From Branchiostoma floridae (Eukaryota; Chordata; Leptocardii; Amphioxiformes; Branchiostomatidae), in contig NC_049985.1 in assembly GCF_000003815.2 (NCBI RefSeq), positions 23,377,406 to 23,441,405 on the forward strand: a stretch of DNA of 64,000 nt, in the 5' to 3' direction. Shown here piece after piece: positions 38,011 to 61,096 of this stretch. The position numbers and the translations under genes were made by a program. The notes under the pieces are model-generated. The model saw nothing but the letters and a program-made list of their open reading frames with translations, had not been told where the DNA came from and ran no database searches. Every line of letters begins with the position of its first letter. Position 1 is the stretch's first letter.

Positions 38011-38137
38011 ATGAAGAGAACAAGCATGAGAGGACGGCCCCTTCCTGCCTTACCGATGACAAACATGAAAGGAAGGCCTCTCCCTGCCTTACCGGATTCT
38101 AAGGTGCTACCACCTTCACACCAAGATCTGGATACAG
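38011..38137 (+). CDS. Lectin receptor exon 1
   Basis: Residues 1-42 plus one base. An in-frame TGA lies three codons upstream, which fixes the ATG. Contains two tandem copies of an M(R/K)GRPLPALP unit, each matching the Src-family SH3 ligand RPLPxLP. Donor G|GTAGGT. Confidence 0.8.
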
Positions 38138-41100
38138 GTAGGTGAAAGAAAGTCTAATGCTTGAGTGACGATAGCAGCAAAAGACTCCGTAGCAATTCTG
38201 CAAGATGTATGCTGACCTTCACATTACAAGCTCTATTGACACGACAGAAAGTACAGTGACTGTCACATTTGTATGGCCAACTATAAACTACCAAAAAAGA
38301 AGAATGCAGAATATGTCTTACAATTCTACTAATTAAACAGTATAGGATAATAAGATTCTACTAATTAAATAATATAGGATAATAAGGAAAAAACCTTTAT
38401 ACAATCAGGTGGGGTTAAACGTGTCACTATCTTTTCTAATCACAAATCAATATTTTATGTATTTACCGATCTTAGCATTATGAGGACTGTTAAATCTAAA
38501 GATATAGTCAATTATCTACTTCTAATATCTAGAATCTTGAAATCTGTAGTACAGTGGAAGCCGCTTATTAGAGAAGGCTATTTGCCAGCTAAATTTTCCC
38601 GACTAACCGGCGTTCCCGATTAAAAGATGTTGCTCGAAATGACCCCAGTGGGGATGGGGGAGGGGGGCATCGGCGAACGCATCGCACTCATTGACCCAAA
38701 GAATACAAACACAATCATTTCTACCAGAAATAATCAAGTCCATAATTACATTAAACTCCACAAATATGCTTTCAGTTGCAAGGCTACGCGGGTCACGGGT
38801 TCCTCACTGGGCTTCCAGTGACGAAAATGTGTTCAAAATGGCGTCATCACTGGACGCCCAGTGACGAAGAAAGTTCGTCACTGGTTGTTGTATCCAGAAT
38901 TGCTTTATTCCAGTGATGAAGCTCTCTCGTCACTCGGTTTCCAGTGATGAACTCGGCTCGTCACTCGGTTTCCAGTGATGAACTCGGCTCGTCACTCGGG
39001 ACCCAGTGATGAACTCCGCTCGTCACTCGGGGCCCAGTGATGAACTCCGCTCGTCACTCGGGGCCCAGTGATGAACGTCATTCGTCACTGGGAACCGAGT
39101 GCGGAACCATCGAGGTCACCGGTTCCTCACTGGGTTTTCCAGTGATCGGTGACTCTTCGGCACTGGACACCGAGTGATGAAATTATTTCGGCACTGGGCT
39201 TCCAGTGACCACGTTCTAATAGCACCAGAACGTTCGAGTGCTGAGTTCGATATGCAACAAAAACGCCCCGATTCACATGTCGCCATAGCGGTGTTACAGT
39301 TAGATTTGGTCCGGGAGTGTGGGGACTTGCAGAGGCGACGACAGTATAACTTTAAGTGCTAACTTTCAAATCACCTCAACTGAAACGATGATTCCTTTAT
39401 CTTCAGTAAACTGAATAATTGTCGTCACTGGTTTACCAGCTGAAGTTTCCTCATCACTGGAAAACCAGTGACGATAAATATTCCCCACTGGTAAGCCAGT
39501 GATGACGCGACTTCATCACTGGATACCGAGTGATGAGAAATTTACCCGTGACCTCGGTAGTTTTGCCTTTCAGTTGCAAATTTATCTTATATCGGTAATT
39601 GTGATATTGTGATGACATTTTAGTGTCGAAGAACACAGGAATGTGAATAACTTATTGCGTAACATATTATACATAGGGCATTCCATGACGAAGCGAAATT
39701 CATTTTCAATTTGCTTTGGACAAAATGGGCCGAACCTTTGGTCACAAATTGTCACCTACTGTAAACTTGCCATGTCTTTATGGTCATCGATCTTTTCGGA
39801 TCAATACGATCAACTCATGAAGCATTGGTCAAATTTGTACCCCGATAAAATCATAAACTTTCAGATAAATATTTTTATTGAATATATATCACAACAGATA
39901 GAGAAATCGAGGTCGATGAGAACTGTGAAGATCCGAACAGCAATGTTTGCGATCATCCACGACAAACCGGTACCCTGAGGAGAGAACCGAACAATGTCAC
40001 GTACAGCCAAGTCCCTAAAAGGCAAGGTGCTTTACGGAAGGCGAAAATAAAAGGTAACACATTGTCATAACCTACGGAAACAATGTGTTGTGTGTGTGTG
40101 TGTGTTTGTATTCGAACATTTCAAGTTTACCTCTTCAAAGAAGTTTTGTATTGTGTGAGCACGATAACTAACTCCAGAATGCCTTAGGTTACAATGTTTC
40201 TTGATATTTGCTATGTAGGTAGTTAAAGTTAAAATTAAACCCTTCCCGCGCCAAGGGCAGTGCCCATTTCTGGCGCATAGGGCGGTGCCCATCTCTGTTT
40301 CGTTAGCCCTGGGCCACACACAACGCAATCACTACAGCAGGGGGCTAGTCCACTGGTAGTGGTGTGTGTTCAACTTCCATACTCTTTCCCGAATGCTGAG
40401 TGCTAAGCAGAGAAAGCAGCATGTACCATTTTTATAGTCTTCGGTATGACTCGGCCGGGATCGAACTCACGACCTTCCGAACGCAAGGCGAACACTACCC
40501 ACTAGGCCATTGCACCGGCTATGTAGGTAGGCCTTGGTACAATTAAAGTTTGGGTTCCCATAAGGTAATGTAGAGCCACTTCCATATGTCATATTGATCA
40601 TATGTCATATTCATCATCATGCCATATTCCAGATGTCATATTTCGTGTTCTAGACATGCTTTGATCATGTTTATTAGTGGTAGATAGCTCTTGGTGCAGA
40701 AAAAAAGTACTGGAAGGTTGATTCCCATTGTAAGTTTTCTTTAGCACTACAGGGGCCGATTTTGTTACAAGAGGAGAATAACTTAGGAATGTGTTGACGG
40801 ATCGTTATCGTTTTCGGTATATAGATACTAACTATGCAAATCAACAACTAATTTGCATATATAGTAAGGAAAGTTTACAAATCCATTGCATTCTATGACA
40901 GGAATCTCGAACTTGTCACAGACATAAAATATGAGAGAGAGAGAGAGAGATGTCAATAGATACAGTATGCAAATTAAAACCTCATTTAGAGGAAAGTGCG
41001 CCATGTTTGTTTGGCCTCCTAGCAAACTCCTGAGGCCAATCAAGTCTCAAGCTTTGATATAGAATCAGTCAAGAAGGGGCTGCACTATGCATGTAGACGC

Positions 41101-41895
41101 ATTTTTTCTATAAAGAAAAGTAACCTTCTTTGTAACTTGCTGTCATCCGATATTTACATAGAGTATCAAAAATATAATACAAAGTACAAATTTCAAACAA
41201 ATTATGCCATGGAATAATTTTTCTCAATAAAGAGGTTTTGCATAATATTACTGAAACTAAATCAAAGCCATTTTTAAACAACAACAACAAAAACACATTC
41301 TATGGAGAGAATTGCTTGTTTGTAACCAATCAATATCCAAATTACACCCCTCTTACCAATTTGCATTTTGCTTTATTCCATTCTGATGGTTTAAGATTAC
41401 GATTTTTGGAAGCTTCTGGTCTCCACAGAAAATGTTTCTAAATCTTTTTTTTTTTCAAATTTTCTGTTTTTTTTTACTTGGTAAGGTATCATTTTGTACA
41501 TCACTGCGTTCTCATAATTGCATGTATCCTCAGAGAGCACATTCTTTGTAATATGTTCAGAATGTACGACTCTGTACAACGGAACCGAAGAACAATCTCC
41601 TGACACCTTTGGGTCCCATGATGATCCCACCAATGAGAACCAACGCACTGAGGAAGAAGATATCAACGATCCACGACAGGCTAGTCAGCAAAGTGGACAA
41701 TCAACTGTAGATCTAGAAGATACAGACAGGACGGACCGTACCAGTGCCTGCCTGTTGGACAATCCGATGTACGCGGCGGGTGCGATACAACAGGATGACG
41801 GAGGTACGTTTTGTTGTTTGCATTCTTGTAAAAATTACCATTTACACAACGAAGGAATGAGTGGATAAATTTAAGGACTGAATGTGTGTGTGTGT

Positions 41896-41947
<52 letters not shown>

Positions 41948-44900
41948 ATGTGTGTGAGTGTGCGAGTATTGTATGACCAGTACAACTTCTTATATCATCA
42001 CCTTTTCTGCTGCAAAGAAATGAGTAGAGCAATTAAACTAGTGAATGTTTGTGCGAGCGCACGTGTGTGCGTGAACGATCATTACAAATTGAGAATGGAT
42101 TGGAAAGACGTTGCTCTTTCTGTGAATTCCAATTAAGGAACCTTTTTATATAAGTGAAGTGAATGCTATTTCATGTCTTACAACAGGATATCATCGCAGA
42201 CCAAGACTCTTCCCTTAAAAAACGTTATATATCGTTGATCTAAAGTGAATTGGAATGAATCGGCCCAAAATTCACACGTGGAATATATATGCGCTATGCA
42301 AGTATTCACCGTTGTTATTACTTGCTTTTTGTAACTTGCTGCCATCTGATATTTACAGAACCTATCAAAGATAAAACAAAAAGAACAAAAGGTCCATTGA
42401 ACTGGGGGATTCTTTTGAGAAACATGAATAGGCAAAGATCACTAAAGCCTTTTTACACCGAATAGTCGTAAATTACAATTTCAAGTAATAGTCTGCAGAG
42501 GTATTAAACATTCTGTTGTGAGAAAATTCTTAAAGATGACAGGCTTCTTTGTAATGCCCTTTTCCCACTAGACGGCGATTGCGCTGCGCTCTCACTGCGA
42601 CCTGTGTAGGATATGTGTAACCTTCGCTTTCGAATTTCACACTGGGTATATCATACATAACGTTGAAGTGTGAATGAGAAGACAATAAAATACAAAAAGT
42701 GTAAAAAGATCCGTTTCTTTTCTATAAAATTCGTTGAGCGATCTGTGAAATTTGAGGTCGCAGAGAGAGCGCAGTGGGAGCGCCATCCTGGTGGTTTGGT
42801 AAGGCTGGTCACAACATTTTTGTACATGTTTTGAATAGATATGAGTTATTTTTTTATATCAAACTGAGTTGTTATATTAGAATATACTTGGAGTTTATAT
42901 TGTTGTTTCTTATTTTCTGTCTCCATTCAGAGAGGAATGTGTTCTTCATGCGCTCCTAAAAAGTCCATTCACATGAGAAGGAATGAGCCTGAATGCCGTC
43001 AGAATGAAAGTCCTTTCCTATTACTGGGACTTCGTAGTGTATTCTAGAAATTCTCACTGCATTCTAGATATTTGTACCCCGTTCTTTTGGCTGGCCCAAA
43101 AGTTTGTAAAAAATTTTGGAGGTGCATTTGAACGGCATTGAAAGTATATTCTAAGTGTATTTCAACTATTCCAACTGCAGTATGACCGCATTCTAAAGTA
43201 TTACAACATTATTCGAAACATTCTTATCTCATTCGTTGGTGAACGGAAACGGCAAACCACTTCGAATCCTGTCAGAATGTGGCCAAAAGAATATCTAGAA
43301 TGCAGTGTACAAAATACACTACGAATTCCCGGGAATATAAAGAATTTTCATTTTGACAGCATTTTGGCTCATTCCTTCTCGTGTGAAGGGGATATAATTC
43401 TCAACCGAATGTGGCACGAAGTTTGCTTTATTCCGGCTAATTTATTTTCAGTGTGAAGGCCCTATAAAGGTGTGTGTGTGTCAGTAGGCGCGTGTATGAA
43501 CAGCATCACTTCTTGTAACATTCATCATTTCTACCAGAAAGGAATGAGTACAGCAATTCAAGGACTGAATATGTGTGTGTGTAATAGGGCACATCTGTTC
43601 GTGAACGAAAAGTACAAAAGTTCTTAATGGATTGGAATGACATTTCCCTTTTTGGAAATTTTATAACTTACTGTCATTTGATATTTACAGAACCCATCGA
43701 AAATACCACACAAAGTGGACACGATGGACAGCCAACTGCAGAAGATACAGACAAGATGGGCCGTAACGGTGCCCGCCTGATGGACAGCCCGATGTACGTG
43801 GCGGGTGTGTTACCACAGGACGACGGAGGTAAGTTTTGTTGTTTGTTTCTATTTACGACAAATGAATTCGAACTCCAATTTTAAGGGAGTGTTTCAATTC
43901 ATAAATTTGCTATTCCCTTTTATTAGATATATTACAGACTCTATATATAATGTTACACGTCACTTTACACTTAACATTAGTATGAGACAGTTGTTGACAT
44001 AGTTTACTGTACTCTTGAAATGATGATGAATAGCACGTACTTTTTTGACAAAATTTCTCTTTGTCTTCCTGAAATGTTAAGATGTTCAAGCTTTGTGCTG
44101 GGTTCTTATCTATGTGTGATGATTGGTGATAAAATAATACTCGGTTTACCGTGGCTTTTTTTTCATGACAGCCATCAACAAATATCATAAAGTATGATTA
44201 AAAAAAGGTTTTTGCGTTTATATATAGCTCTTGCGAATGCAATCTGACAGCAGTTATGAAATAAAGATATGGAATATTTTCTGCTCACAGACAACAACGA
44301 TGCTGCAAACAGTTGCGTGTTTCCGGGAAACTTCAACGTGACATCCCACCGTTTCTGTGTGATGCTATTCGTCATCATCGCCATTGGCATTGGTGCAGGA
44401 GCTGGTCTCGTCATATTCCTCACAACTGTGCAGGAGACTCATCCTCCAACACTCAGCAGTTCTCTGGAGCGGAGTGGTACATCAAGCCGACCAGTGTCAC
44501 CATTCCCCGCCATCCCTACCGGTTCTACACTGGAAAACAAAAGTGGAAACCCCCCGGTTGGTTACCTTAACCTTGTATTGAACGTGAAGTTTTAGACCAC
44601 TACTGTAACAGTTTTTATGTCAAACAAGAAGCAGCTGTTAATGGAAAAACAGAACATCCATTTCTAATGATACGCAAAGTTTTCAGTTTATAAAAATGGT
44701 AGGTTTATGTTGTAAGCGCTGCCTCCTTTTAACCTTAACAGACGGGAGGGGTGGTGTCTGCTTTTGAGGCCTGCGCCAAATTTCATTTCGTATAATGCTA
44801 GAACGGCTTACGCTAGAGCCACCAAATTTGGTTAGTTTTCCTAAAATACTGTTCACATAGTTTTAAAAATTCCATTTTCTTGTGTTGCCATGGCTTTAGT

Positions 44901-47900
44901 TGGCAGGCATTTTTATTTTTACAACACGGGTTGGGAGTGACTTAAAACCCAACGCCGCTCCCTTAGAATTTGTAACTACCTGGTATTCTTTCATCAAAAA
45001 GCATTCAAATCAATGCGTTTAGTCTATTTCCATTTGGCGATTATTTATTGCAAAAAAAAAAGTATTTTTGAAAATTCAAGGTGTTCAATATAAGATGGCC
45101 GGGCCCAACTGGTATCTTAGATGTGTATGACATCTTTTTATGACGTCAATATTACGTCATTGATGTTGCTATTTGCAACACAAGTTGTATATTTAAATAA
45201 CATTATCATTCAGTTATCTGCAGCTGTTACATTTTTGTAGCATACCTTGCCAGTTTCTGGGAATACCTTTTCTTCATGGGTCCAGCCAATACAATCAAAA
45301 TGATGACGACATAATTACCACACATTACGTCATGATAGCGTCAAAATTTCTAAATCGTCAGATAGCATGTCTACAACATTCCCTAAAATTTTGGTGGTAA
45401 TATGATAAGTCGTTGAAGAGTTACATGACTTAAAAGGGAAGGGCCTTAAAAGCAACCCCACAAGCCACCACTTCAAATCCAGGGTTGTCCTCGGACAGAA
45501 GAGGCTCGGGAGCTGTAATGCAGCTGGATACCAGGCTAGATGAAAATAATTTATCCGTCAATAGTTGTATATGAATTGAACGCAGTCTTCTTCGGCACAC
45601 GACCCTTTTAAATTCTTCTTCAGACTTGTCATCTTGACAAGAAGTTTCGTCACGATTGATCAAGTTCGATTTGCACTGACATGACAAGTTCACTCAGCGT
45701 CGATTGAAACTGTTCATTTCGTACTAGTAACAAAGACAGACTAGTCACTGTAAGGTATACAGAAGAATATAAAGGAGGATTGTGTACCAAAGAAGACTAT
45801 TTATGTCCAATAACAATAAGTTATAATTTGATATCTACATCTTTAACAGACCATGATGATTGTGACGGAAGATCCAACCAATGCAACAGCGTTTCTTTCA
45901 AGGAAGACAGCTGATGGTATGACGCTGCCAGCTAACGTAAGAAAAAGTCAAAGGCTTTTGAAATGCCCTAGCCTACATTGTATAATGAATCACTGTTTAC
46001 GTGTATTAAGGTGTTATCTTAAACACAAAAGCTTTCTATGTCGAAAAATTGTAGCCTTAGCCTAAGATACACAAGGTAACAGTTTCTCAAACAACTGGAT
46101 AAAGTTTGCTTGAGATTGTAACCTTGCGTACCTCTATTTGATAGAATATATCCAGTGCCACTATGGTATGTAAATGAGGTTGTGACGTCACTGTTATGAC
46201 ATCACTGTTGATAGAAATACCATGATGCTCTTCTGTCTGTTTCCACCATGATGGACGCGTTGGACGTAAATGATAGCCTCTTCCAATAAAGTTGCATCCT
46301 CGCCTTTGAGTCAGTCATCCTGCATCCCCTGGTTAAATAATGACGCGGCCAATCTAACAGTCTTGTCTACATGGACGACATCTTTGAAACGAGTGCTATT
46401 CGATTTTGGAAACGAGATGTTTCCGCAGGCAAAGACAGTCGGCAGCTAAAGATAAAGTAAGAAAATGTTAAAGATCTGTGAAACGCCCTAGCCTATTATG
46501 AAATGCAGTTTTGTACTCTACAGTGATACAAACATACTTGTACTATTATTTGTCGCCAGGTTTTGACACATTCTGTGGAAAGGACAGGGTTTGACCAGCT
46601 TCAGACGACTACAAAGCAACAACCTTTAACGACCCTTGAAGGTATGACACTCAGGCGACAAATTAGTTGTTCTTATTAGTATAAATTTTTTTTTGTGTCC
46701 GAATATGCAGGTCAATCGCATATAACTAGAGCACCTGTTGATGGACATACATGATATTTGGTATTTGAGCAGCGGTTGCAGAAACAAAGGTCCTGTTCGA
46801 AAACGGTTCAACTGGAGCTTTCCGTCGACACTGCAGCGGTGCGAGTTTGTTTATGTGTGTGTTTGCGTACATGATATCTCGAGTCTTTGTGGATCATTTT
46901 GCAGGCTTTTTGGTAGTTATGTGGGAGTTGGGGAACCAAAGGTCAAGTTCGATTATGGGCCTCCTGACGCTTTCCGTTGGCACTGCAGCGAGGCAAGTGT
47001 GTTTGTGTTTGCGTTTGCGTACAAGATAACTCGAGACGTTGTGGGTCGTTTTGCATGATTTTTGGTAGTTATGTTGGGGGTGGTAAAATGAAGGTCAAAT
47101 TCGATTATGGGCCTCCTAGCGGTAAGTTACGGTACTGCAGGGGAGGTTGAAAGTTATTGGTAAAATTTTCCTGAAGTGCCAGGTTAATGATTTTTGAGTA
47201 GTGGATACGTCATCGGGCAGGGCGTTAGTCGTGTAAGTTTGGTCCCCCTGGCGGCCTTTATAAAATGGCAGGGGCCGAATTTGTTTTAGACTCAAGAAAG
47301 GTTGGACGGATTGTCATGATAGTCGATGCGTTGATAAATTGGGTGATAATTTCTATAATCAAGTTATTAGTATGTTAATCCGTGGCTAATTTGCATAATT
47401 AATCAATAGAGTTTACAGATCTCCTGCATTACCTGATAAGACCTGATTTTGGGGACAGTAGCTGCCTTCTCGGGGCTTCTAATTGTTTTGGTTGGTGAGC
47501 ACAATATAGGTCATGAAAACAAAACAATTGTCAAACGTTTATTTTTCAAAGAAATGGAGAAGGGGTACCTGTCTTGGCATGGCTATTAGTGGTAGATACA
47601 ATGTTGATCTTAAGGCTGGAGGTAAGTAGTGTAGGTTTGGGCCCCACAGAGCCTTTTTTGTTATTGAAGGGACTGGTTTATATAGTGCCAGATTTTGAAA
47701 GGGAATAACTTAACAAGGCATTGACGGATCGTCATGATTTTTGGTTTGTAGATAGCTTAAGTTATGTTTCATATATTTAAATATCAATTATGCAAATCAA
47801 ATTCTGTATCGCATAATTAAGGGGGAAAGTTTAAACCCTCTTTATAAAACAATTTTAGGACTATTCTAACATGTAACATTTTTTACTGACAAAGAGGACA

Positions 47901-50900
47901 ACACTATAGATAAATATTATGTAAATGAAGACCTTATTTGCATAATGATGAGAAAATGCTATAATCAGTTGTAAATGACGGGAATGTCTTACTTGTAGCA
48001 TTTGTAAGTTATGTACGGGTGAGCATCATCGACTAATAATTATGCAAATGAGGGTCTTATTTACATAAATTATTCTTTCTTTCTTAAAGATAGGTTGTGT
48101 ACGTCAGTTATCTGGGCGAAGGAGATTTTCGTCTCCAAGCAGACATATTAGCTAGATTAAAAAATAGAAGAATTTGGCCAAATTATTTGTCATGGGATAG
48201 CGTGGTGGTCATGTGGCCTTGTTTATGAATAAGCTTTAATCACTTTGACGCTGGAAGTCAGTTGGGATGGATAAAAGGAAATTTTCAACCGCTATATACG
48301 CACTTTCATGCAGCCGTTTAATTCTGGCAGGTACTCTGGTAATACATGGATGAGACCTTAAGACTTTGCACTCTCCATTATAAGCCTTGATTATTTGGCG
48401 AAGGTATGTGTTTCGTGAAACTCTAGTTCGAACAAAAAAAAGGTACACTGCGCACGCCAGAGCGGCGCGGTCGAAACTTCGAATACCTGATTCGGACGTT
48501 GGAACATTGCTTGTTGCGCCCGGAACCGTGCTTTGTCCGAAAACGTGCCAGGGCCCCGCGTGTCCAGAACCGTGCCTGGGGCAAAAGGACTTTTTTGGGA
48601 CACGCGGGAACTGTCCCGAACCGTGCCCAATCGCGCACAGTTCTGGGCACACAGGGGACCTTACACTACGAGGTGAATAAATGTGAAAATTATGCGAATC
48701 TGTTGCAAAATTCCAACAAAATGTGATATAATGTGAACCATTTTGAGGTTCAACAGTATCACATTTCATCACATAATCGCATAAAATAACATTAATGTCA
48801 CAATTCTGAATGCTAGCACAGAAATTGAGCTTTATGTGAAAAATGTTATTTGTTAACACCACATGTTTTCACATTTCCCCGAATCCGTCTGAAAAATCAC
48901 ATTTTAAAATATACTTTGATTATGTAAATATCACTTTCTCAGTGTAGTTTTTAACCTTTAATTGTACTGTGTTTGTTTTATGGGACAAAGACCTGATGAA
49001 AATAAATTAATAGATAAATTAAAACATGTTATCTAAATGTGACATTGGCTGTGCATCCATTATGTGAAATAATGTGACTGTCCGTACCACAGGTATGGGG
49101 AAATATATTACATTCGTAATGTTTCTTCTTCTTTCTGTTTCACCTGTCCAATCTTCAAAGCGCTTCATCTCTATCTTTCTTGGACCGAATGATTTGAAAT
49201 AGAGTGGGCTAATACCTCCAAGCATTTTTTTCTCCTGTACCCTTGTTTTACAACTAAATTACCTACATTCTGGTAAAGGAGTGCACTAGATATTGATCCA
49301 AATGACCCATCTATAATTTCTGTCATGAACCACTTCAAAATGATTTACATGTAGTCGGGGATTTTTGGGTCATTTTCAAATTGGCCCGAGGTCAACAAAC
49401 TTCTCTTTCAGGTGCTAGGCCTGTACAAGTCTATAACTTAATCAAAGAGGCAGCCAATGATCTAGCCTGAATCAAAAACCTGAGGAGGATTCGGAAGCCA
49501 TTCAGCGAGGCTGGTGTAATCTGGAAGAGTCCATTTATGCACGGGGGATTTTTAAAAAAAATTCAAATTCGGACTTATACAATTTGCTTATACAATAGGC
49601 CATATTTTCAGTGGGAGTATTTCTGCACTGGTCTATTTTGCAACTCAAATGGGGTGTGCTGTAATATTCGATTGGGGATTTTCTTCAAATTCAGTTTTGG
49701 ACGGGTGATGATTCAAAATTCCATTTTTTTAGCGGAAGTGTTTTTGTACTGGTCTATTTTACCTTTTTACATGGGGTGCATTAGAAGAGTCTATTCTTGC
49801 ACGGAGGGGATTTTTTAAAATTCATTTTTGGGCTACAGTTTAGTAAACGTCATTTTTTTAAGCAGAAGTGTTCCATTTTTTGCACATGGGTGATTTTGGA
49901 ACAGTCTATTGCTGTATGGGGAGGGAGATGGCTGAAATATACTGTATTTACTCTCAAACAAATGTCGGCCTTTTTAATGTTTCTTTATTCTGCTTGACAC
50001 GGCGTAAAGAAAAATATCCGACACATATCTCAGTTGTCTAGTTTCCACTACGGTTCATTTTCAGGGAAAGGCAACCTGGCTATTAATAAGACAGCGACCC
50101 AGAGTTCCGACTATGTTCACTGGGGGGAAGCCTTGTGTGCCGGAAAGGCTGTTGATGGTTCCAGAGCGACGGACATTAAGCCAGGAAAAGCGTGCGCTCA
50201 CACCAAATATGAGTATCAACCATGGTGGAAGGTGGATTTGTCACGTACCTACATAATAAAGAAGATCAGCATTCTAAACAGGGGCGACTGCTGTGGTAAG
50301 TTTGAGTCGAACCAAATAACCCAGCATCTATAGTTAGCTTTTACTATATCTAGACTAGTGTAGACACTTTTGATATTGTATTTTACACTGTTTGAATCTT
50401 TTATGTTACCTGCAATTAGCCCACGGGCAAGAATTTGCAATAAACTTGATAATTAAATGATGATTAAATATATTCATCTTTATTTTATCTTATTCCACGC
50501 AATAATGGTGGATTTCTACAGAACAACATCATTGTAATTATCATAAACGGATTTGAGAAGCTTAAACGAATTTGAGAAGCAGTTCAAATTTCGAAGAGCA
50601 CTGGGCACAGATAAATTTTCACGACTTTGTCAATAAGATGACGTTGAAGTTGATTTGATAGGAATTTAAACCATGTGAGAATAAGTAAATACCTCTACAG
50701 AGGTTTAGTGTGCTTTTAAAAAGCTAGGCTAATACTTATTCAGCGTGCTCTTGAAAGACGCAAATGGGTTACATTTTGTAGATTTTTTGGTGTTATTGTT
50801 ATATTATTGTGTAGGCCAACTACTCTCTCTTAACAGTCAGGGCCTGAATTGCGAGGATCTTACAATAGGCGCGGGGGTAAATCGCAAGAGTTTGTAGAAA

Positions 50901-53900
50901 GCTGCCATTCGGCGCCACTCAGGTGACCTCAATACGACAGTAATTGCCCTAGATGCGGCCATTGGACTGTAGGTTTTGAACCACTCACACCGGGAAGGAC
51001 CCCTACTCTTTTCGAGAAGTGTGGTGGGATCTTTAACGTGCTAGAGGTGTGGTTCTCCTCAAACACGGGACCTCCATTTAACGTCCTATCCGAGGACGGC
51101 CCTAACCAAAGCTAGGTACTCATTTCACCTGAGTGAAGTGAAAAAAGTCGTGTAAAGTGCCTTTTCCAAGGGCACAACATCGAGACAAATCAGCGATTTC
51201 GAACACGTTACGTCTTTGGTCTGGGTAAATACGTTACCGATTGCGCCACACGATGCTGAAAGATGTTGAAAGGCGCAATTACATTTATGAATGTTTGTAT
51301 TTGCAGGAGAACGGTTGAAGAATTTCACTGTGCGCGTCGGCCTGAATGAGGACTTTGCCCTGAATGATCAGTGCGGAGAGATGTACACGGACACACCAGA
51401 GGATGGGCAGACTATCGTGGTGTACTGCAGCCCGCCGATATCCGGCCGTTATGTGTCCGTACAGCTGATGGAACGGGAAGACGCCTTGTCACTGTGCGAG
51501 GTGGAGGTGTATGCTGAGACAGGTCAGAAACACTTTAATATGACATGTTTATTAGCATGAAACGTCATCTGTGTTGCGTTTGTATAATCCATATTGAAGT
51601 TTTGTAACTGTCATCCAATACAAGAAATTGCTCACCTCGAATTTAGCATCTATGTTTTGCTGACACAAATATGACATCAACTATACCCAAGTCTGGCGCG
51701 CATATGTGGTTAGGCACTGAGAACTGAGGGTCCGGGAAAGAGGTCGATTTCTGGATTTACACATTCTTCTCAATTATCATGCAAATGAAGCCCCGGTTTT
51801 CATACAATACATTTCAGGATTTTAATCATCACCTATGGTATGTACATACCAAAAATAATGCAAATCCACCAACCCCTCTTTGACTAATTCTCTTCCAAAG
51901 ATAACAACAAAATCGCCCACTGCAGTTCAAAACAAGCCACCAGCGGGCCCAAACTTACATGACTTACTTCCTACCCAAAGACGTCTCCACTAGCCAAAAA
52001 TCCTGAACCTGCCACTTGAAGGTACAGTCAAACCTGCCCGAGCGACCACCTCTTCTCAGCGACCACCTGGCCATTTCGACCGCCTTTTCTCGGTCCCGAT
52101 TTGTTTCCCCATTGACGTAAGCATTAAGCGACCTTTTCTCAACGACCACCTGGCCAACGCGACCGCGACCGGCCCAAATTAGGACCCATAATGACCGCAT
52201 CATTGTCAAAATTGACGTTTTCATCGATTTCTGATGATAACTAGCGCGACTTTGTGCCGAAATCGGCCAGTTTGCGTCGGATTCCCGAATTTAGTTGTTA
52301 CAAAAGTTTTTTTTTTTTAAATCCATGTCATTATAAAGTGAACGAATGCTGAAACGTATATAGCCTCATACCTTTTTAAGAAAGATCTGTGTTGCTCATA
52401 CATTTTTAAGAAAGATCTGTGTGAGTGCTTTTGTCCAACTGAACTTTACATTCACCCGTGGGTAAGTACGCTATCGGGACGTACCGGGCATCGAATTCGA
52501 AAGGTACACCGTAGTTATTTCAGATTCGGCGATCAAGAACACAGCGACGCATAAAGGCTTGTATGGTAACTAACAGCATCAAAGTTCCCTTACTGTCTAA
52601 AACGTTAGTGTACAACAAATGCTTTAAAACACTGTATCGTATTAAAGGTCGATAAAAGCTTGGGGTTAAATTTACAATTTACAGTGTGCGTGTTGTATTT
52701 GGTACCAAAGACCTCGCTTCTTTCAAATTTGCGTGCGTGCAGTGTGCTAGCTATTTGCCATTAAACACAACGGAAACCATTCATACTTTGCATCGGGCAT
52801 GTTTTGAGTCGATACTCTTCTCAGCGACCACCTGCCCAAATCGACCGCTTTTTCCCGGTCCCCCGGGTGGTCGTCTTGGACAGGTTTGACTGAACCTTCC
52901 ACTCCAACTTTGACGCTCCGCTGCAGTACAGCAACTTGTCGCCAGGACGCCCATTATCGAACTTGACCTTCGTTTTCCAAACCCCTACTTAACTACCAAA
53001 TATCATGCAAAACGATCCAGAGCGTCCACAGTTATCTTGTCCGCAACCACACACACACACACACTCGCCCCGCTGCAGTCCCGACAAAAAGTGCCAGGTG
53101 AACCGTTTTCAAACAAAACCTTGGTATCTGCAACCGCTACTCAAATACTAAATATCATGAAATTCCATCCACATCTGCTCAAATTATATCAATTGACCTA
53201 CATATAAGGTCACAATACTTTTTTTCTACCCAAAATATAATCTTCTTGGCGAAGGTAAAAATGGCACACCGTAACGAAATAACAGTAGGTCAACACGGTT
53301 GTGGTAGACCGTACCGTATTGTTTATTTTAGGATCTTCCTGTAGGCCAGCGTTATTTTAGAGGTTATCATAGTTAGGGTTGACAACTGCACCATCACAAT
53401 GACCATTCTATTATTTCCAAAAGTACATTGGTGATTTTGACTTCCAAATCTCGATAGAGTTGGCATAACAATTCTGCATCCACCTCCCCAGGATGGCTGA
53501 TACGGGATTCGTCATGGGTTGTGGGGTCCACCGGTACACCGTGGGTCAACGACGGAGTGACGTATGATGCTGCGAAGGTTTTGGATGGGGACATTTTGAC
53601 CTTGTGGAACCCTACCGGTATCAACAACAATAGATGGTACATCGCATTCGACCTCACAGTGCCCCAAACTCTGACCCGCATCGCAGTCAACAACTTCGGA
53701 GACACCGACCATGACATCGCAGCCTTCACGTTGCAAAATTCGCAGGTTGGGAGTCCGTACAACTGGGAGGACGTCGTGACCGTTACTACCGTACAAGGAG
53801 GCCTAGGGACGTACAAGCTGCAGGAGTTCGGCGGGTTCCGGGGAACAGCGCGGTACTGGAGGTTTCTCATCACTCGGACCCACTTGGGCTGGCATCCATG

Positions 53901-53931
53901 GCTCAGAGAACTGAACTTCCACGGAATCTAA
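38011..53931 (+). CDS. Type II membrane F-type lectin receptor with ITIM-like tail, eight exons
   Basis: Predicted 606-residue receptor. Exons: 38011-38137, 39898-40053, 41561-41803, 43691-43828, 44291-44560, 50065-50295, 51307-51522, 53492-53931; every intron is phase 1. Cytoplasmic residues 1-242 hold RPLPALP at 9-15 and 22-28 (class I SH3 ligands), VTYSQV at 76-81 (ITIM consensus), NPMY at 162-165 and SPMY at 208-211. One transmembrane segment lies at about 243-265. No signal peptide precedes it, so the C-terminus is outside. Residues 312-460 form an F-type lectin domain with the complete fucose motif H357-x26-R384-x-D386-x4-R391 and vicinal Cys387-Cys388. Residues 461-606 form an F5/8 C-like domain. 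Known fucolectins bind fucosylated glycans; coupling to phosphatase or Src-type signalling is inference. Weak points: the exon 5 donor (GTTACC), the 5.5 kb intron after it, and possible missed exons there. Confidence 0.8.
38782..39567. mobile_element. 786 bp non-autonomous element built of CCAGTGA/TCACTGG palindromes
   Basis: Flanked by a perfect 12 bp target duplication TTTCAGTTGCAA (38770-38781 and 39568-39579); the duplicate locus at 58847 has one copy (one mismatch) and no insert. Terminal inverted repeats are imperfect: CTACGCGGGTCACGGGT on the left against CTACCGAGGTCACGGGT on the right. The interior has more than a dozen CACTGG/CCAGTG motifs, including a tandem array of about 31 bp units (CCAGTGATGAACTCGGCTCG, then TCACTCGG) at 38940-39090, and a second internal copy of the terminal motif near 39111. 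The short frame inside (39174-39362) shows no transposase motif. Family not recognised. Confidence 0.85.
39898..40053 (+). CDS. Lectin receptor exon 2 (ITIM-like motif)
   Basis: Residues 43-94. Acidic start, then EPNNVTYSQVPKRQG. VTYSQV fits the (S/I/V/L)xYxx(I/V/L) consensus of inhibitory receptors. Acceptor ATCACAACAG, donor AAAG|GTAACA. The paralogous exon at 59169 lacks 54 bases of this one. Confidence 0.78.
40222..40517 (-). mobile_element. tRNA-derived SINE, copy 1
   Basis: 296 bp flanked by a perfect 12 bp duplication GCTATGTAGGTA (40210-40221, 40518-40529); the empty site is seen at about 59474 in the duplicate. On the minus strand the 5' end reads like a tRNA promoter: A box GGCCTAGTGGGTAG and B box AGTTCGATCCC. 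The 3' tail is rich in TTTAAC. A second copy is at 62298-62577. Confidence 0.88.
40630..41050. repeat. Dispersed repeat, family D, in the duplicated block
   Basis: Contains 'aacttaggaatgtgttgacg', GGATCGT and CTATGCAAATCAA blocks shared with 47690-47830 and with the duplicate at 59540-59960. Includes an (AG)n tract at about 40933-40949. Confidence 0.5.
41561..41803 (+). CDS. Lectin receptor exon 3 (NPMY motif)
   Basis: Residues 95-175, very acidic and low in hydrophobics, ending CLLDNPMYAAGAIQQDDG. NPMY is an NPxY-type motif, recognised by PTB domains and endocytic adaptors. Acceptor ATATGTTCAG, donor GAG|GTACGT. Confidence 0.85.
41883..41960. repeat. (GT)n microsatellite
   Basis: About 35 imperfect units immediately after exon 3. 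The duplicate copy at 61178-61210 has a much shorter, interrupted tract. Confidence 0.95.
42331..42460 (+). pseudogene. Decayed copy of a lectin-receptor tail exon
   Basis: The block 'gtaacttgctgccatctgat' + ATTTACAG followed by AACCTATCAAAGAT closely matches the acceptor and start of exon 4 (43667-43705), but the frame then loses similarity and has no DSPMY end. A further remnant of the same acceptor is at about 41131-41160. These are relics of tandem exon duplication. Confidence 0.6.
42558..42797. mobile_element. MITE, family G copy 2
   Basis: Ends CCCTTTTCCCACTAGACGGC and 'gcgccatcctggtggtttgg', inner arms GCTGCGCTCTCACTGCGACC and GGTCGCAGAGAGAGCGCAG. Aligns with 19531-19763 end to end. 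Confidence 0.75.
42965..43392. mobile_element. Foldback element
   Basis: Left 'cacatgagaaggaatgagcc' and right 'ggctcattccttctcgtgtg' are inverted; inner arms GAATGCCGTCAGAATGAAA and TTTCATTTTGACAGCATT, then 'gtagtgtattctaga' and 'aaaatacactac'. About 428 bp, no coding frame. Confidence 0.7.
43691..43828 (+). CDS. Lectin receptor exon 4 (SPMY motif)
   Basis: Residues 176-221. A diverged duplicate of the second half of exon 3: EDTDKMGRNGARLMDSPMY against EDTDRTDRTSACLLDNPMY. Here NPMY has become SPMY, which may weaken adaptor binding. Acceptor TGATATTTACAG, donor GAG|GTAAGT. Confidence 0.85.
44291..44560 (+). CDS. Lectin receptor exon 5 (transmembrane)
   Basis: Residues 222-311. Hydrophobic segment CVMLFVIIAIGIGAGAGLVI (about 244-263) followed by a Ser/Thr/Pro-rich stalk. 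The chosen donor GTTG|GTTACC is the only one that keeps phase 1 near the end of the frame; the unspliced frame continues 11 codons to a stop at 44595, which could give a short membrane-only isoform. Confidence 0.75.
46890..47340. repeat. Dispersed repeat, family D copy
   Basis: Internally repeated: 'cattttgcaggctttttggt' type and GATTATGGGCCTCCT blocks occur twice (about 46900-46970 and 47045-47120). Related to 8771, 47560 and 52899. Confidence 0.55.
47560..47830. repeat. Dispersed repeat, family D copy
   Basis: Carries the blocks 'ggatcgtcatgatttttggt', TTGTAGATAGCTT and CAATTATGCAAATCAA, in the same order as at 40790-40870 and 59700-59770. Confidence 0.5.
48063..50064. other. Late part of intron 5, no exon seen
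   Basis: The 208-codon minus-strand frame at 48236-48862 spans a CCGTGC/GCACGG palindromic repeat and has no domain, so it was rejected. Blocks near 49560-49880 ('attccatttttttagcggaa' type) repeat several times with decay. Confidence 0.4.
50065..50295 (+). CDS. Lectin receptor exon 6 (F-type lectin, first half)
   Basis: Residues 312-388: NLAINKTATQSS, the AVDG block, CAHTKYEYQPWWKVDL and ending LNRGDCC. Carries His357 and Arg384/Asp386 of the fucose site and the vicinal cysteines. Acceptor TTCATTTTCAG, donor TGTG|GTAAGT. Confidence 0.93.
50296..51306 (+). other. Lectin receptor intron 6
   Basis: 1.0 kb, phase 1, containing a SINE (50839-51255). Near 50435 'tttgcaataaacttgat' again resembles the family B interior. 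Confidence 0.8.
50839..51255 (-). mobile_element. tRNA-type SINE with a conserved central domain
   Basis: On the minus strand it begins with a tRNA-like promoter: A box TGGCGCAATCGGTAACG and B box GTGTTCGAAAT. The body includes CTTTTCGAGAAGTGTGGTGG and 'cacgggacctccatttaacg' on the plus strand, a segment that I recall as common to SINEs of many marine invertebrates. Family name not assigned. Confidence 0.7.
51307..51522 (+). CDS. Lectin receptor exon 7 (F-type lectin, second half)
   Basis: Residues 389-460, beginning GERLKNFTVRVG, which completes R-x-D-x4-R across the splice junction, and ending LCEVEVYAET, the usual end of F-type lectin domains. Confidence 0.93.
51523..53491 (+). other. Lectin receptor intron 7
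   Basis: 1.97 kb, phase 1. A family D repeat (51780-52018 and 52899-53230, minus orientation) is split by the inverted-repeat element at 52019-52898. Confidence 0.7.
52019..52898. mobile_element. 880 bp element with AAGGTNCAGTCAAACCTG ends
   Basis: Left end AAGGTACAGTCAAACCTGCC and right end GGACAGGTTTGACTGAACCTT-type are inverted repeats. Subterminal blocks AGCGACCACCT and TTCGACCGCC(TTTTC) recur on both sides. It interrupts a family D repeat. No coding frame, no clear target duplication. Confidence 0.8.
53492..53931 (+). CDS. Lectin receptor exon 8 (F5/8 C-like domain, stop)
   Basis: Residues 461-606. After acceptor CACCTCCCCAG: GWLIRDSSWVVGSTG..., with VLDGD, TLWNPTG, WYIAFDL, LTRIAV, YWRFLITR and ending LRELNFHGI. 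These are the conserved strands of the discoidin/F5-8 C fold, here of the type often found in bacterial and invertebrate carbohydrate-binding modules. The acceptor keeps the phase, and the nearest upstream in-frame ATG is absent, so this is an internal splice start. Confidence 0.93.
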
Positions 53932-58081: not shown

Positions 58082-58208
58082 ATGAGGAGAACAAGCATGA
58101 GGGGACGGCCCCTCCCTGCCTTACCGATGACAAACATGAAAGGAAGGCCCCTCCCCGCCTTACCGGATTCCAAGGTGCTATCACCTACTCACCGAAATGT
58201 GGATACAG
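58082..58208 (+). CDS. Paralogue exon 1
   Basis: 127 bases as in the full gene; begins MRRTSMRGRPLPALP. Differences fall mostly at the end (LSPTHRNVDT against LPPSHQDLDT). Confidence 0.72.
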
Positions 58209-59306
58209 GTAGGTACAAGAAAGTCTAATGCTTGAATTACGACAGCAGCAAGAGACTCCGTAGCAATTCTGCAAGATGTATGCTGACCTTCACATTACAA
58301 GCTCTATTGACACGACAGAAAGTACAGTGACTGTCACTTTTGTATGGTCAACTATAAACTACCAAAAAAGAAGAATGCAGAATATGTCTTACAATTCTAC
58401 TAATTAAACAGTATAGGATAATAAGATTCTATTAATTAAATCATATAGGATAATAAGGAAAAACCTTTATACAATCAGGTGGGGTTAAACGTGTAACTAT
58501 CTTTTCTAATCACAAATCAATATTTTATGTATTTACCGATCTTAGCATTATGAGGACTGTTGGATCTAAAGATATAGTCAAATCTACTTCTAATATCTAG
58601 AATCTTGAAATCTGTAGTACAGTGGAAGCCGCTTATTAGGGAAGGCTATTTGCCAGCTAAATTTTCCCGACTAACCGGCGTTCCCGATTAAAAGATGTTG
58701 CTCGAAATGACCCGAGGGGGGATGGGGGAGGGGGGCATCGGCGAACGCATCGCACTCATTGACCCAAAGAATACAAACACAATCATTTCTACCAGAAATA
58801 ATCAAGTCCATAATTACATTAAACTCCACAAATATACTTTCAGTGGCAAATTTATCTTTTATCGGTAATTGTGATATTGTGATGACATTTTAGTGTCGAA
58901 GAACACAGGAATGTGAATAACTTATTACGTAACATATTATACATAGGGCATTCCATGACGAAGCGAAATTCATTTTCAATTTGCTTTGGACAAAATGGGC
59001 CGAACCTTTGGTCACAAATGGTCACCTACTGTAAATTTGCCATGTCTTTATGGTCATCGATCTTTTCGGATCAATGCGATCAACTCATGAAGCATTGGTC
59101 AAATTTGTACCCCGAAAAAAATCATAAACTGTCATATGTATATTCTTATTGTATATATATCACGACAGATGGAAAAATTGAGGTCGATGAGAACTGTGAA
59201 GAACCGAACAATGTCACGTACAGCCAAGTCCCTGCGAGGCAAGGGGCTTTTCGGAAGACGAAAATGAAAGGTAACACATTGTCACAACCTACGCAAACAA
59301 TGTGTT

Positions 59307-59370
<64 letters not shown>

Positions 59371-61096
59371 TATTCGAACATTTCAATTTTACCTCTTCAA
59401 AGACGTTTTGTATGTGTGAGCACGATAACTAACTCTAGAATGCCTGCGTAGGTTACAATGTTCCTTGATATTTGCTATGTAGGTAGGCCTTGGTACAATT
59501 ATAGTTTGGGTTCCCATATGTTACTGTAGAGGCACTTCCAGATGTCATATTTTGTGTTCTAGACATGCTATTATCATGCTTTTAGACAGGTAGATAGCTC
59601 TTGGTGCAGAAAAAAAGTACTGGAAGGTTGATTCCCATAGTAAGTTTTTTTTTAGAACTACAGGGGCCGATTTTGTTACAAGAGGAGAATAACTTAGGAA
59701 TTTGTTGACGGATCGTCATTGTTTTCGGTATATAGATACTAACTATGCAAATCAAGAACTAATTTGCATATATAGTAAGGAAAGTTTACAAATCCATTGC
59801 ATTCTAAGACAGGAATCTCGAACTTGTCAGATACATAAAATATGAGAGAGAGAGAGATGTCAATAGATACAGTATGCAAATCAAAACCTCATTTACATGT
59901 AGAGGAAAGTGCGCCATGTTTGTTAGGCTTCCTAGAAAACTCCTGAGGCCAATCAAGTCTCAAGCTTTGATAGAGAATCAGTCAAGAAGGGGCTGACCAT
60001 TTGTTCTGAGATTATTCACAAACGTAATGAGGGAATATTGGAATAGCCTTCCTAGTTAAAACGAGATTTTCATATTTAAAATGACATGTGTAATATTGCC
60101 AGAGGAGATAATCAACTGACATTATTTATGCAAACGAGGACCTTATTTGCAAATTCCTTGAGAAACATTTATGATACGCCAGTGGAAAACTTAAGATAAT
60201 TTGACAACGGTCTGAGGTCAGCGAACTCTAGTTATTGGATTGGATTTATGTTTTTCTGTGAATTCAAATGAACGGACCTTTACATTTCAGTTCACTGTAC
60301 AAATGGCATTCACGTTCATACAACAGGATGTACGTTTTGCACACTCAGAGTTTCCATTGAAATGTAATACAATATTAAAAGTGCACTAATAGTATGCATG
60401 TAGACGCGTTTTTTCTATAAAGAAAAGTAACCTTCTTTGTAACTTACTGTCATCCGATATTTACATAGAGTATCAAAATATATTACTAAGTACAAATTTC
60501 ACACAAATTATGCCATGGATTAATTTTTCTCAATAAAAAGGTTTTGAATAATATTACTGAAACTAAATCAAAGGGAAAAAAGACACATTCTATGAGGAGA
60601 ATTGCTTGTTTGTAACCAATCAATACCCAAATTACACCCCTCTTACCAATTTGCAATTTTGTTTTATTCCATTCTGATGGTTTAAGATTACGATTTTTGG
60701 AAGCTTCTGGTCTCCACAGAAAATGTTTCTAAATCTTTTTTTTCTTCAAATTTTCCGTTTTTTGTTTACTTGGTAAGGTATTATTTTGTACATTACTGCG
60801 TTCTCGTAATTGCATGTATCCTCAAATAGCACATTCTTTGTGGATATGTTCAGAATGTACGACTCTGTACAACGGAACCGAAGAACAATCTCCTGACACC
60901 TTTGGGTCCCATGATGATCCCACCAATGAGAACCAACGCACCGAGGAAGAAGATATCAACGATCCACGACAGGCTAGTCAGCCAAGTGGACAACCAACTG
61001 CAGATCTAGAAGATACAGACGGGATGGATCGTACCAGTGCCTGCCTGTTGGACAATCCTATGTACGCGGCGGGTGTGTTACAACAGGATGACCGAG
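58082..61096 (+). CDS. Partial paralogue of the lectin receptor (tail exons 1-3 only)
   Basis: Three exons: 58082-58208, 59169-59270, 60854-61096, with the same splice sites and phase 1 as the full gene. All are open. The tail keeps both RPLPALP motifs, the ITIM-like VTYSQV (Tyr60 here) and NPMY. Exon 2 lacks 54 bases, an 18-residue in-frame loss. No SPMY exon, transmembrane or lectin exon follows within the next 2.9 kb, because the duplication ends at 61545. Either more distant exons beyond the window complete it with a new ectodomain, or it is a truncated gene. The open frames argue against long decay. Confidence 0.65.
59169..59270 (+). CDS. Paralogue exon 2
   Basis: 102 bases; DGKIEVDENCEEPNNVTYSQ then VPARQGAFRKTKMK. 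The deletion relative to 39898-40053 joins at a CCGAACA repeat. Confidence 0.72.
59301..59367. repeat. (GT)n microsatellite
   Basis: About 30 units just after exon 2; only about 12 units at the matching place in copy 1 (40083-40106). Confidence 0.95.
60854..61096 (+). CDS. Paralogue exon 3
   Basis: 243 bases, same length as 41561-41803. Ends CLLDNPMYAAGVLQQDDRG. Donor GAG|GTACGT. A few conservative changes only. Confidence 0.78.

Follow-up and report, generated by a model that had tools for sequence, protein, structure and literature searches.

The subject of this work is a gene in a 64,000-nucleotide stretch of the Branchiostoma floridae genome (C7:23377406-23441405, hereafter the window), where it spans positions 38011 to 53931. 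On balance, and with some reserve, we consider it probable that this gene encodes a membrane receptor of type II orientation, one of a large amphioxus family in which exchangeable lectin heads are set on one tail, likely serving both signalling and uptake. The predicted protein would have a conserved N-terminal cytosolic tail with SH3 ligands, TYSQ[LV] and NPxY motifs, followed by one helix, a short stalk and exchangeable lectin-type heads; in the window gene and three tandem neighbours the head appears to be an F-type lectin domain placed ahead of an F5/8C domain. The exon structure, the tandem copies, the tail, helix and stalk shared among genes with differing heads, and an extra DNA segment bearing the lectin exons are all evident at the sequence level. 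The gene is real, well formed and part of a larger pattern than was recognized in a preliminary description, which had proposed an eight-exon fucolectin receptor with an inhibitory-receptor-like tail.

All eight exons of that first model were found, with GT/AG splice sites and an open spliced frame over the span 38011-53931, together with the two RPLPALP copies, VTYSQV, NPMY, SPMY, the single hydrophobic segment and the F5/8C domain it had listed. Its statement that all seven introns are of phase 1 had to be abandoned: two exons coding for a stalk had been missed, and with them the revised gene comprises 10 exons, separated by nine introns of phases 1,1,1,1,0,0,1,1,1, and codes for 661 residues without an internal stop. 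We infer that the tail, stalk and lectin exons are spliced together as follows:

38011..38137, + strand: exon 1, with the start codon and two RPLPALP class I SH3 ligands.
39898..40053, + strand: exon 2, with VTYSQV, which here fits the consensus of the immunoreceptor tyrosine-based inhibitory motif (ITIM) and in the family reads TY[SN]Q[LV].
41561..41803, + strand: exon 3, with NPMY; an alternative acceptor at 41534 is likewise of phase 1.
43691..43828, + strand: exon 4, with SPMY here and NP[MT]Y in the array copies G2-G5.
44291..44556, + strand: exon 5, with the transmembrane segment (residues 245-265 of the revised protein) and a phase-0 end where CCG meets the donor GTTGGT.
45850..45936, + strand: exon 6, newly found stalk A, 29 codons, phase 0-0.
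46560..46641, + strand: exon 7, newly found stalk B, phase 0 in and phase 1 out.
50065..50295, + strand: exon 8, first half of the F-type lectin, with H412, the cation motif AVDGS at 395 and R439-G-D-C-C.
51307..51522, + strand: exon 9, second half of the F-type lectin, with the last basic residue of the triad, R446.
53492..53931, + strand: exon 10, F5/8 type C domain and stop codon.

The genome matches on which much of the following relies come from a six-frame search of 513 Mb in 431 contigs, in which only the best candidates were scored, so that all genome match counts given here are lower bounds. Stalk B (VLTHSVERTGFDQLQTTTKQQPLTTLE plus the first base of G, donor GTATGA) has 24 such matches, and 23 of them lie within 13 kb downstream of a same-strand match to the transmembrane exon, so that its position and reading frame can hardly be ascribed to chance. 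Stalk A (TMMIVTEDPTNATAFLSRKTADGMTLPAN, with AAC before the donor GTAAGA) is present in four of the five array copies G1-G5, with a poor donor in G2, and was not found in G3; its skipping would keep the frame and give 632 residues. What may be a second, degenerate copy of stalk A lies near 46333-46450 and was left out of the model. The most likely end of the transmembrane exon is 44556, with a phase-0 donor (GTTGGT or GTTAGT) that is kept in all 11 copies examined. A phase-1 GT four bases further on is also kept in the 11, in a poorer donor context. A direct junction from exon 5 to the lectin exon through the phase-1 donor GTTACC was considered and rejected, given the conserved stalk exons and the constant phase-0 donor; because the phase-1 GT is also present in all 11, this rejection leans mainly on stalk B. 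Exon 4 closes with a duplicated copy of the terminal part of exon 3 (86% over 106 bases).

Downstream of the gene and in the same orientation lies a tandem array, which upholds the earlier proposal that tail and lectin belong to one gene: G2, G4 and G5 carry all eight exons in unchanged order, and G3, without the lectin exons, keeps the tail, helix, stalk B and F5/8C domain. A partial copy, G6, is also part of the array. G2 starts within the window at 58082, with its first three exons at 58082-58207, 59174-59269 and 60853-61092, and its exon 2 has lost 18 codons and retained VTYSQV.

Across the genome, the array included, the same unit of tail, helix and stalk is found with several kinds of head. 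The transmembrane exon has 28 genome matches, one of them doubtful (C18, with stops, E 0.007). An F5/8C domain follows 11 of the 28, four of these with an F-type lectin in between, a count made from 12 F5/8C matches picked near transmembrane loci out of 152 in the genome. In L038 (C7 19.35 Mb) a C-type lectin exon (Pfam E 5.9e-18) with phase 1-1 borders stands behind the same tail. WSC-like exons follow the unit in L024, L037, L064 and L065, and in the last three these are followed by F-type-lectin-like exons, the assignment to one gene being suggested there by order only; in the pieces scanned from these three loci, two first halves score above the PF22633 cut-off, and one first and one second half below it. 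In L066 (C7 23.55 Mb, about 1254-1790) the same stalk exon is followed by open frames of a head module, one of which gave no match in a Pfam scan. No head was seen in L036 (C7 12.23 Mb), whose stretch ends before the stalk B match of that locus. In L025 (C10) tail-like, transmembrane, C-type lectin and F-type lectin exons stand in succession, which is only suggestive of a single gene. At least four kinds of head can be proposed from the exon orders: F5/8C; F-type lectin with F5/8C; C-type lectin; and WSC-like with F-type lectin. Because a C-type lectin exon also follows the same tail family, the tail seems to be the common base and the head the part that varies, and the window gene looks like one member of a mix-and-match receptor family and not a lone oddity.

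The lectin exons match Pfam PF22633 and PF00754 and, among structures, the fucolectins 3cqo (E 1.7e-43) and 1k12 (E 8.9e-23). In gap-free alignments, H412, R439, D441 and R446 coincide with the corresponding residues of eel agglutinin (1k12) and of the first FBP32 domain (3cqo), so that the H-x26-R-x-D-x4-R motif described earlier stands, split over two exons across a splice junction. The spacing of 26 residues from His to Arg is the same in 1k12, 3cqo and the window lectin; in the consulted part of PMC5712786 the fucose motif is printed as HX24RXDX4(R/K), and the eel lectin in our alignment shows the spacing of the window gene as against that X24. The cation motif given in the same source, h2DGx, is present as AVDGS at residue 395. 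Exon 10 alone passes the PF00754 cut-off for F5/8C (39.2 bits vs 28.2); its weak PDB neighbours are chains named glucanase or chitosanase. The Pfam scan of the window protein gave no match to Lectin_C.

The lectin exons sit in a segment of DNA that appears to have been added to the gene. Two intervals need to be distinguished:

46674..53255, no strand: segment with the lectin exons, 6.58 kb, with inverted repeats just inside its borders.
48664..51644, no strand: core of the segment, which recurs with gaps at F-type lectin loci of C10 and C18, in intron sequence too.

The lectin-less paralogs G3 and C3 (L023) share the DNA of the window up to 46673 and again from 53256/53257, and the segment was not found in either of them. 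The shared DNA stops at 46673 in G6, where the fetched stretch ends before any head, and at 46665 in L038, and most of the segment is shared by G2, G4 and G5 in one order, with gaps and extra pieces. Inverted repeats with 79% identity (46693-46969 and 52940-53215) lie 20 and 41 bases inside the outer borders. The core pieces are 81-97% identical with gaps between them, short repeated pieces being 72-74%, and the left edge of the core, 48664, coincides with the edge of an interspersed repeat. This pattern is best read as a single insertion or replacement that put a phase-1 lectin cassette into an existing gene made of tail, stalk and F5/8C domain, with likely help from a transposon in lectin insertion or exon shuffling. 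The borders of the core were also considered as transposon ends, and were discarded as such, since terminal inverted repeats of the core were no more conspicuous than those of control stretches.

Other repeats and frames were seen in these regions. The lectin core of C10 lies between direct repeats of 75 bases with 89% identity (L025 7576-7650, L062 882-954). An open frame of 210 codons stands on the minus strand of the window at 48236-48868, within the intron that precedes the lectin exons, and overlaps the interspersed repeat starting at 48664. Intron 1 contains a 31-base tandem repeat (38879-39126) with inverted copies nearby.

A hydropathy analysis of the model without stalk gave only one strongly hydrophobic segment, which corresponds to residues 245-265 of the revised protein, and none at the N terminus. 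Lysine and arginine are in excess on the N side of the helix as compared with the C side in all 11 homologous exons compared; in L038 the net charges on both sides are equal. A type II topology with the motif-bearing tail inside, as in the preliminary description, is supported by these features.

Motifs of the kinds present in the tail can bind SH3, AP-2/PTB or SH2 proteins, and YxxPhi and NPxY can act as sorting signals. Both RPLPALP copies are identical in all five array copies, and of the 20 matches of exon 1 in the genome, the weaker align chiefly with the latter half of the exon. Exon 2 was read in all 17 of its genome copies (18 rows, two from one locus): TY[SN]Q[LV] occurs in every one, and the strict ITIM form VTYSQ[VL] in seven, G1-G5 included, position -2 (V) being G or R in the remaining ten. 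Strict ITIM conservation across the family was therefore not found in these exon 2 copies. For exon 3, the search gave 59 matches at E <= 0.1, a number that includes copies of exon 4, and NPMY, an NPxY motif, was seen in 14 of the 15 exon 3 copies read, the exception being L060, where the stretch read ends at a stop. In exon 4 it is the window gene that is exceptional, with SPMY in place of the NPTY or NPMY of G2-G5. In 20,000 shuffles of the 236-residue tail, P was 0.075 for at least one ITIM, 0.026 for at least one NPxY, 0.012 for at least two class I SH3 ligands and 0.51 for YxxPhi. The ITIM consensus [SIVL]xYxx[ILV] has one match in the tail, VTYSQV, and because of the P of 0.075 this match alone is not beyond chance. 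As far as the copies tell, the family-wide signature is YxxPhi with NPxY, plus SH3 ligands at least in the array, and the strict ITIM is a feature of a sub-group.

A working scheme for the receptor would be that the lectin recognizes fucosylated microbial or self glycans, and that clustering would let a Src-family kinase docked on RPLPALP phosphorylate the tyrosines of YSQ[VL] and NPxY, after which SH2/PTB and AP-2-type proteins might drive signalling and uptake of the bound particle. A competing reading, to which we give somewhat less than even weight, is that the protein is primarily an endocytic or scavenger receptor, clearing fucosylated particles without inhibition of the ITIM type, with YxxPhi and NPxY as AP-2/PTB sorting signals. 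The constancy of TY[SN]Q[LV] and NPMY, next to a strict ITIM in a minority of copies, speaks in its favour; YxxPhi, however, is common by chance, and the exact SH3 ligands in five of five close array copies suggest kinase or adaptor docking.

It seems unlikely that the protein is a true inhibitory receptor in which VTYSQV works as the ITIM of the sub-group. The presence of VTYSQ[VL] throughout the array would agree with this, as would the ITIM pathway published for amphioxus (PMC8211107, in the part consulted), but the array copies are close relatives and their agreement is weak evidence, the ITIM is single and within reach of chance, and position -2 is changed in the other ten copies. Of the inhibitory-receptor-like character proposed at first, then, the fit of VTYSQV to the consensus stands, and the reading as such is weak, the constant motifs of the family, TY[SN]Q[LV] and NPxY, suiting docking or endocytosis as well. 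A net inhibitory signal would be most plausible in the VTYSQ[VL] sub-group, and inhibitory function as such is a guess. Finally, it is very improbable that exons 1-5 make up a tail gene and exons 8-10 a separate lectin gene: there is a 3.4-kb intron ahead of the lectin exons, and F-type lectin exons lie at many other sites (150 scored matches), two of which (L034 on C14, L035 on C18) showed no tail exon in about 9 kb of upstream sequence, but the exon order is the same in the tandem copies, stalk B joins the phases with no stop between the parts, and F5/8C stands behind the tail even where the lectin is absent.

Several observations weigh against a type II lectin receptor with exchangeable heads and a conserved tail. 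Four N-glycosylation sequons precede the helix, one overlapping VTYSQV; with three in the 236-residue stretch against a shuffle mean of 2.2, they show no depletion. The GTTGGT that follows exon 5 is not a strong donor. All four WSC-like exons (19.7, 19.4, 22.5 and 26.1 bits) fall under the Pfam cut-off of 27.8. In G5, one of the four lectin-bearing array copies, the lectin histidine is a threonine, and for this reason G5 may have lost fucose binding. Pooled over G1-G5, the ratio of nonsynonymous to synonymous change (pN/pS) was lowest in the tail (0.53), the stalk (0.55) and the lectin (0.59) and higher in F5/8C (0.78) and the transmembrane exon (0.85). This indicates constraint on average and nothing further, because the pairwise comparisons are not independent of each other and several individual pairs give values above 1 (in the transmembrane, stalk and F5/8C parts); the constraint on the tail is modest.

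Compared with known systems, the window lectin resembles eel agglutinin AAA and bass FBP32 in the spacing of the fucose triad, RGDCC, the cation motif and the Pfam and PDB matches; those two proteins are soluble, whereas the lectin considered here would be held on a stalk at the membrane and combined with an F5/8C domain and a tail of signalling type. Type II C-type lectin receptors of the natural killer (NK) complex carry N-terminal ITIMs, and the window protein shares with them the type II layout, an N-terminal tail with a tyrosine motif and a lectin head outside. Unlike theirs, its head is not of the C-type fold, and its single ITIM is not conserved in its family. The idea of a separate solution to the NK-type design, put forward at first, needs to be changed, as the same tail family also precedes the C-type lectin exon of L038.

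Mosaic F-type lectins, in which the domain is joined to transmembrane, CTLD, CCP or FA58C partners, are known from B. floridae, Drosophila (furrowed/CG9095) and sea urchin (SpCRL) according to the consulted passages of PMC5712786, which name FA58C and transmembrane domains as frequent partners, B. floridae among the examples, and give more than 70 F-type lectin sequence clusters for this species. A shared tail family is not described in those passages, and a term search of the paper gave neither 'ITIM' nor 'tyrosine'. The literature search, judged on titles and abstract openings and for some queries on part of the hits, gave no description of this receptor or its tail family, in line with the earlier remark that no such receptor was described, but the partner domains were already known, and priority for the architecture may lie with the survey of F-type lectin architectures by Bishnoi et al. 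(cited in PMC5712786). The amphioxus receptor BbLcLRR, compared here by its description in part of PMC8211107, is similar in having ITIM-like tyrosine motifs phosphorylated by amphioxus Lck and a WSC domain, and differs in its LRR head; its inhibition was assayed in Jurkat cells.

Tentatively, and with less confidence than in the receptor itself, the family may be a combinatorial system of one tail, helix and stalk with at least four heads, swapped as phase-1 cassettes, in one case or more within a segment that has inverted repeats at its borders and consists partly of interspersed repeat. If so, the NK-type receptor clusters would have a counterpart in an invertebrate chordate, one in which the head, and not the tail, varies. 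The lectin-bearing and lectin-less neighbours resemble the states after and before a head exchange, which makes this step directly testable. If the tail does signal, amphioxus would show how a chordate can build many glycan receptors by changing the head on one tail.

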